Origin: Sphingopyxis jiangsuensis
Lineage (GTDB): Bacteria; Pseudomonadota; Alphaproteobacteria; Sphingomonadales; Sphingomonadaceae
Assembly (NCBI RefSeq): GCF_016734905.1
Contig: NZ_JAERPO010000001.1
Coordinates: forward strand, 186,001 to 250,000
DNA: 64,000 bases
Direction: 5' to 3'
In this document: positions 33,173 through 33,324 of the stretch, piece after piece
Numbering within the stretch: the stretch's first letter is position 1
Layout: the number at the start of each line of letters is the position of its first letter
The notes under the pieces: generated by a model
The model's input: the letters and a program-made list of their open reading frames with translations, nothing else
Database searches by the model: none
Told to the model about the DNA's origin: nothing
Program-made: the position numbers and the translations under genes

Positions 33173-33324
33173 GAGTCTTCGCGGCCACACCACCAGTGGT
33201 TGAGTCCGCGCGTCGCTCGCGACTCCATATGTCGTGGCAGACTCCTTTCGTTCTCGTCCCGTTAACCATTTCGAGAGGCTTGAATCCTAGAATCCCGAGC
33301 TTGACGGCGGACTCTGCCGGACTC
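33173..33324. promoter_or_regulatory. Cluster of eight GANTC sites upstream of ccrM
   Basis: GANTC occurs at 33173, 33202, 33221, 33240, 33282, 33290, 33310 and 33320. All lie between the upstream terminator and the ccrM start. GANTC is the CcrM recognition sequence and should occur about once per 256 bases, so this density points to methylation-dependent control of ccrM itself. Confidence 0.75.
33262..33269. promoter_or_regulatory. CtrA half-site in ccrM promoter region
   Basis: TTAACCAT, a known form of CtrA half-site in alphaproteobacteria, 93 bases before the ccrM start and in the middle of the GANTC cluster. In Caulobacter, CtrA drives ccrM. The second half-site is absent. Confidence 0.4.

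Follow-up and report, generated by a model that had tools for sequence, protein, structure and literature searches.

Candidate NrdR operator with built-in GANTC sites in the conserved ccrM promoter region of Sphingopyxis jiangsuensis and other Sphingomonadaceae

The GANTC cluster upstream of the DNA methyltransferase gene ccrM in Sphingopyxis jiangsuensis was real and conserved among the Sphingomonadaceae. Two of its sites formed the inner edges of two NrdR-type boxes, a predicted paired operator that is a new element overlooked in the preliminary description of this DNA. NrdR is a dATP-sensing repressor of ribonucleotide reductase; in other bacteria the NrdR tetramer acts as a repressor, binding in the presence of dATP plus ATP. 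Based on box architecture, spacing and matrix recognition, the upstream dyad is very probably an NrdR operator. Coordinates of all features are listed in Table 1.

Table 1. Features of the ccrM upstream region. Positions are those of the window; counts refer to Sphingomonadaceae ccrM upstream regions.
Feature	Position	Strand	Basis or conservation
Terminator-like stem, 3' of upstream short-chain dehydrogenase gene	33135..33152	+	terminator scan
GANTC 1 (GAGTC), distal left flank of candidate operator	33173..33177	.	115/120, N always G
Left NrdR-type box CCACCAGTGGTTGAGT, inner edge makes GANTC 2	33190..33205	.	
GANTC 2 (GAGTC), inner edge of left box	33202..33206	.	101/120, N always G
Spacer between boxes, 16 bp	33206..33221	.	
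GANTC 3 (GACTC), inner edge of right box	33221..33225	.	107/120, N always C
Right NrdR-type box ACTCCATATGTCGTGG	33222..33237	.	C4, A6, A8, T9, G13 in 96–99% of 121
GANTC 4 (GACTC), right flank of candidate operator	33240..33244	.	83/120
Conserved GTTC, 29 bp after right-box GACTC	33250..33253	+	29 bp in 90/97 with both found
CtrA-type half site TTAACCAT, 39 bp before TTGAC	33262..33269	+	-39 is the commonest position
GANTC 5 (GAATC), optional spacer site	33282..33286	.	ccrM upstream comparison
GANTC 6 (GAATC), optional spacer site	33290..33294	.	ccrM upstream comparison
Predicted -35 element TTGACG	33301..33306	+	CTTGAC about 90% or more conserved (alignment)
GANTC 7 (GACTC), between -35 and -10, +9 from TTGAC	33310..33314	.	
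GANTC 8 (GACTC), +19 from TTGAC, overlaps -10 start	33320..33324	.	
Presumed -10 hexamer CATCAA, 17-bp spacing	33324..33329	+	conserved GACTCA at this place
ccrM, GANTC adenine methyltransferase, 379 aa, ATG start	33362..34501	+	Pfam domain content

The GANTC cluster and its conservation

The ccrM product contained the domains N6_N4_Mtase (1.6e-67) and RAMA (1.4e-18) in a Pfam search, and was 89–93% identical to its eight best named relatives among the matches listed, all Sphingopyxis. The gene was matched in all 99 family genomes, that of S. jiangsuensis counted among them. This genome also encoded gcrA (PF07750 at G000:C1:361502, over the cut-off) and nrdR (TIGR00244 at G000:C1:128949-129374, above the cut-off). 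A single terminator-like stem was detected in 33100–33400 against 0.5 expected in shuffles. A DNA search of the genome with 33165–33362 as the query yielded no second copy of the upstream element better than E = 0.155.

A recount placed all eight GANTC sites exactly where they had been described, including the pairs spaced 8 and 10 bp and their location between the terminator-like stem and ccrM. The window (the whole 64-kb stretch analysed) averaged 0.26 GANTC per 152 bp and its dinucleotide shuffles 0.77. The window contained 111 GANTC in total, compared with a mean of 326 in dinucleotide shuffles. An 864-kb sample of the 3.13-Mb genome, consisting of the window and 40 further 20-kb stretches (800 kb in all), contained 1444 (1.67 per kb). 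Because GANTC is generally avoided, the cluster is more striking than was assumed in the preliminary description. When sites were counted per 152-bp window over the 864 kb, at least six were found upstream of ccrM only; the nearest rival was a tandem repeat in which 174 bp were needed for six sites.

Other GANTC groups were observed in this genome. Tandem repeats of 70 bp with two GANTC each ran into an N stretch (L236:755-1000; G000:C2:391181 onward). Four GANTC in 31 bp lay about 270 bp upstream of the start of nrdA (L234:2463-2493; G000:C2:262747-262777), near a possible AT-flanked hairpin and shortly before the NrdR boxes of that gene (L234:2536; operator at G000:C2:262820-262866).

For the comparison with relatives, the best 80 loci of a larger list (named GTDB contigs) were combined with loci from genomes of the same genus and family, with at most 30 loci per search. 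The 138 ccrM loci were turned to the ccrM strand and six duplicates were dropped, which left 132 distinct upstream regions. At least three GANTC were present within 250 bp in 130 of these and at least five in 108, so that the high density, contrary to what had been implied, is not special to this organism. The 34 regions taken from the genus Sphingopyxis had 7–10 GANTC each in 250 bp. Nearly all Sphingopyxis genomes shared positions of about -189, -160, (-152), -141, -122, -81, -72, -52 and -42; other genera retained most of this spacing. The sites upstream of orthologous ccrM genes were non-random and kept their positions, and in the alignment the conserved blocks reached well past the GANTC letters. 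In other alphaproteobacterial families, at least three GANTC lay in the 260 bp upstream of ccrM in 42 of 60 genomes. These represented 59 other families of the class and were taken from the third row of a ranked list onward, with G257, G179 and G180 passed over.

A candidate NrdR operator with GANTC inner edges

The dyad read ACTC-A-AT-TTGTGG plus its inverse. It could be anchored in 121 of the 132 upstream regions (11 remained unanchored) with matrices built from the ccrM regions themselves. The features of NrdR operators, two palindromic 16-bp boxes with C4 and G13, were recovered, and in S. jiangsuensis the boxes were imperfect palindromes. G13 was present in 100% of 102 left boxes and 98% of 121 right boxes, and A6, which with C4 and G13 is a hallmark of NrdR boxes, was conserved at 97% and 99% in the two boxes. 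C4 was found in 99% of the right boxes; its 100% in the left boxes is due to selection, because these were located by their GAGTC. Box spacing was counted in the 102 regions with a left GAGTC, leaving out the 19 of 121 that had none. With 14–20 bp allowed, 45 regions had a spacing of 16 bp and 57 one of 17 bp, so that all 102 fell within the 14–17 (or 24–27) bp expected of NrdR operators. NrdR proteins have been found to bind boxes 14–17 bp apart (PMC12051234). The genome encodes the regulator itself. NrdR boxes also often overlap the polymerase site (PMC9110341), but no such overlap with the RNA polymerase site of a ribonucleotide reductase gene was found here, the right box ending 63 bp before TTGAC.

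Recognition by known sites was assessed with a matrix from three Escherichia coli nrd operons, one 15-bp-spaced pair each, located by the signature C.A....T.G and containing no ccrM sequence. The median score was 15.0 for ccrM upstream regions and -2.7 for 1000 random stretches of the S. jiangsuensis genome. The background 99% level was exceeded by 115 of the 132 regions, and the stricter 99% level of shuffled ccrM upstream regions by 93. In 107 of 121 anchored regions the best pair was the dyad. When whole loci were scored (687 kb), 121 of 132 had their top pair at -260 to -100 of ccrM. Upstream regions of Sphingomonadaceae nrdA-type genes had a median of 16.2, and 25 of 31 exceeded the background 99% level. 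The ccrM dyad of S. jiangsuensis reached 11.9 against a background 99% level of 10.7 (random 330-bp stretches), and did not rank among the top 12 pairs in the 864 kb sampled. A matrix built from nrd boxes of the family placed the best pair at the same position in 126 of the 132 whole loci and, with the organism's own nrdA withheld, ranked the nrdA operator first and the ccrM dyad second in the 864-kb sample; since these boxes had been picked by C.A....T.G, a signature already seen in the ccrM dyad, there is some circularity in this ranking and in one further test with them. It affects the E. coli test less, though the boxes there came from the same signature.

A sequence-only covariance model of 12 nrd pairs was weak in the S. 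jiangsuensis genome. With 150 of 296 first-look candidates scored genome-wide, it found at E<=10 only the nrdA site, which was in the training set, and missed the ccrM dyad. Within the window, the dyad was its top match (E = 7). In a run of 23 consecutive loci chosen without regard to the dyad, every match at E<=3 was to the ccrM dyad (six matches in five loci, lowest E 0.54). The same was true of every match at E<=1 in 18 hand-picked loci (seven matches in five loci, lowest E 0.15).

The canonical edges of NrdR boxes, from the consensus of the E. coli boxes, are ACAC/GTGT. Here, both inner edges were ACTC/GAGT, and the adjoining G or C completes a CcrM site. Among 120 regions the inner edges matched GANTC in 107 (right) and 101 (left), and the mirrored outer edges in none on either side. 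The N was fixed as C on the right and G on the left, in contrast to genomic GANTC, in which A and T together made up 73% of N (864-kb sample). Such a one-sided departure from the consensus, at the very base needed for CcrM, is hard to explain without selection for methylation. As the inner edges deviate from ACAC/GTGT, NrdR binding could be weakened.

In other families, 23 of 60 genomes had a box pair above the shuffled 99% level, which is weaker evidence; on this basis NrdR-type control of ccrM may extend past the Sphingomonadaceae. Only one of the 60 genomes showed no nrdR (G234, locus L187, 84% complete), and its box pair was still there, which makes a comparison of the joint loss of nrdR and boxes uninformative. 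NrdR-like palindromes of the ACACAAGATATTGTGT type were observed upstream of ccrM in other families (L176, L187, L189, L194, L202 and others), and several overlapped the end of an rnhB-like reading frame.

NrdR control of ccrM, or an architecture of this kind, was not found in the titles and abstract openings of the matches listed from the open-licence literature. The main text of a genome-scale reconstruction of NrdR regulons in Proteobacteria does not name ccrM or a methyltransferase (PMC5343134). GANTC sites have been counted upstream of cell-cycle genes before, with the judgement that no control could be derived from them (PMC2877005).

Core promoter, helical register and alternative readings

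The -35 and -10 elements were assigned by sequence alone; a promoter scan of 33100–33400 found no sigma-70 consensus promoter, and the presumed -10 is poor. A GANTC lay at +7 to +10 from TTGAC in 91 of 120 Sphingomonadaceae upstream regions and at +18 to +20 in 99, in 97 of these at +19. An A came after the +19 GANTC and, together with the last C of that site, would begin the -10 hexamer at a 17-bp spacer. The TTGAC/GANTC/GANTC core was also present in 27 of the 60 genomes from other families (token-shuffle mean 0.63, maximum 4). GANTC between or over the predicted -35 and -10 is the arrangement of methylation-dependent GcrA/CcrM promoters, and at GcrA-associated sigma70 promoters GANTC and its methylation are described to act in such a layout (PMC3667746, PMC4287350). 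The core promoter is likely to be read through its methylation. With two sites in the core promoter and two forming the inner edges of the predicted operator, the cluster is not one array with one role, as it had first been viewed.

Other elements varied more. The CtrA half-site noted in the preliminary description was present, but it is variable among relatives: 80 of 120 regions had TTAAC[CTG] in the 60 bp preceding the -35, at several positions. The GTTC and its orthologues sat within a conserved TTTCGTTC[TC]. A DnaA-type 9-mer was found in 36 of 120 upstream regions, mostly 28–29 bp after TTGAC. In many relatives (L053, L056, L067, L070, L074 as a variant, L078, L132, L136, L139 and others) the DnaA-type box TGTGGATAA followed the -10 GANTC directly, at about +28 from TTGAC; it was absent here. 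A few Sphingomonas had a DnaA-type box inside the spacer between the two NrdR-type boxes.

The distance from the right-box GACTC to TTGAC fell into three classes, 68–69 bp (4 regions), 78–81 bp (100) and 89–91 bp (16), which accounted for 120 of the 121 anchored regions; it was 80 bp in S. jiangsuensis. The exception, L128 (135 bp), was a missed -35, with TTGACG visible about 100 bp away; a separate count of distances included one of 100. On a quick CcrM tree the 10-bp distance class changed at least 14 times, whereas the -35-to-ATG length, which served as a built-in control, took many values and changed at least 68 times. Given whole-turn distances on one side and a scattered length on the other, the operator seems obliged to face the promoter from the same side throughout, an argument for contact between a bound regulator and polymerase or for a shared loop. 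A single helical period for the whole array was considered and rejected. The 47 sites in 65 non-redundant variable spacers were phased beyond chance, with a maximum Rayleigh value of 0.50 at periods of 9.5–11 and 0.41 as the largest of 2000 nulls, but the best free period was 11.25, and pair distances in the 60 genomes from other families had no clear 10-bp period. Helical phasing is therefore claimed only for the distance from the dyad to the -35.

Several other readings of the region were weighed. Mere relaxation of a general avoidance of GANTC would be in line with the site being commoner in intergenic than in coding DNA of Alphaproteobacteria (PMC3973325), but it is refuted by positional conservation and has practically no probability left: the same 65 regions held 391 GANTC against 10–95 for seven comparable pentamers, the positions and N bases were fixed, and 864 kb contained no comparable cluster. 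An RNA element, a hairpin or attenuator in a long leader, was suggested by the complementarity of GAGTC and GACTC, through which the dyad could pair. We rejected this reading as highly improbable, because the two arms matched no better than independent columns would (over 81 distinct pairs the excess was at most 0.03, and several positions were below expectation), the fold z-score was -0.8, no Rfam match was obtained at E<=1, and length changed in steps of about one DNA turn. A coding explanation was discarded as well; open reading frames cross the region, but spacer length changes of 10/11 bp and site steps of 10 bp do not suit codons.

The remaining two readings concern the protein that would bind the dyad. 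If methylation alone were at work, the whole array would be a GcrA/CcrM feedback promoter and the dyad an extra methylated-GANTC site for GcrA or CcrM instead of NrdR. The GANTC pairs in the TTGAC core of other families, the four GANTC sites that frame or edge the dyad, the presence of gcrA and the link between GcrA binding and methylated GANTC in Caulobacter (PMC3667746) all speak for it. We nevertheless consider it unlikely, as the right-box positions 6, 8, 9, 13 and 14 lie outside any GANTC, are strongly conserved and are those of NrdR. The dyad is, moreover, found by a matrix derived from E. coli, which to our knowledge has neither CcrM nor GcrA. Less probable still is another tetrameric regulator whose half sites resemble NrdR boxes by chance; the imperfect palindromes in S. 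jiangsuensis and the lack of a significant E-value for the nrd sequence model at the ccrM dyad would fit such a protein, but the spacing, G13, the rank beside nrdA and the presence of nrdR in the genome agree with NrdR.

Proposed control of ccrM by nucleotide supply and methylation

Taking the dyad as an NrdR operator, we favour, with moderate confidence in the mechanism as a whole, a composite ccrM promoter that reads both dNTP supply and methylation state. From the layout we infer that NrdR and GcrA occupy the promoter and that its GANTC sites are methylated, as well as the direction of the methylation effect and the timing. The promoter would have two reading heads, the NrdR operator upstream and the core promoter downstream. 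The two boxes, about three helical turns apart, would form the operator for an NrdR tetramer, and their whole-turn distance from the -35 would place bound NrdR on the same face as RNA polymerase. In the core promoter, one GANTC in the spacer and one over the -10 edge would be used as at GcrA/sigma70 promoters that read CcrM methylation. Since the inner edges of the boxes are CcrM sites, CcrM would methylate the operator of its own repressor. During replication, dATP would be drawn down, NrdR would leave and ccrM would be transcribed, while the passing fork would leave core promoter and operator hemimethylated. At the end of replication, dATP would rise and CcrM would restore full methylation, so that both inputs would shut ccrM off. 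The earlier proposal of a self-methylated ccrM promoter is consistent with this layout, which would allow methylation by the gene's own product, but the stronger feedback read from site density was not supported, density by itself being no proof. More tentatively, and with some doubt, CcrM methylation might gate NrdR: the inner edges of the two boxes would have been turned into CcrM sites so that fully methylated, hemimethylated and unmethylated operators bind it differently.

Parts of this design resemble known systems. Dam sites lie inside Lrp or OxyR operators (pap, agn43), and here, too, a methyltransferase site overlaps the predicted binding site of a regulator; the enzyme and the regulator differ, and the proposed use is in the cell cycle instead of phase variation. 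The region shares with the NrdR operators of ribonucleotide reductase genes the two 16-bp boxes with C4/G13, 16–17 bp apart, in a genome with nrdR. Unlike in those operators, the gene is a DNA methyltransferase gene, the right box stops 63 bp short of the -35 and the inner edges ACTC/GAGT are CcrM sites. The Caulobacter crescentus ccrM promoter region contains GANTC sites. That promoter is activated by CtrA, its transcription depends on methylation state, and it is used only when hemimethylated (PMC2217572). In comparison, the promoter described here had eight GANTC, a fixed TTGAC core with two of them and, farther upstream, a pair of NrdR-type boxes whose inner edges are GANTC. GANTC in or near the core promoter is shared with the GcrA/CcrM-controlled promoters of mipZ, podJ and ctrA P1 (PMC3667746, PMC4287350), unlike which the regulated gene is here the methyltransferase itself and GcrA binding is putative. 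In Caulobacter, higher dNTPs or the loss of nrdR shift cell-cycle behaviour; the text of that report does not mention CcrM (PMC12186491).

CtrA and promoter hemimethylation are the usual explanation of how CcrM is timed relative to replication. An NrdR operator upstream of ccrM would bring the dATP level into this timing as a metabolic signal. The operator would also explain a joint switching of ribonucleotide reductase and of the methyltransferase acting behind the fork, and the CcrM sites at its inner edges offer a natural test case for the effect of methylation on NrdR binding. If the gating is true, the ccrM promoter would compute the dATP level times the replication state, and in Alphaproteobacteria the epigenetic clock would be coupled directly to nucleotide supply.
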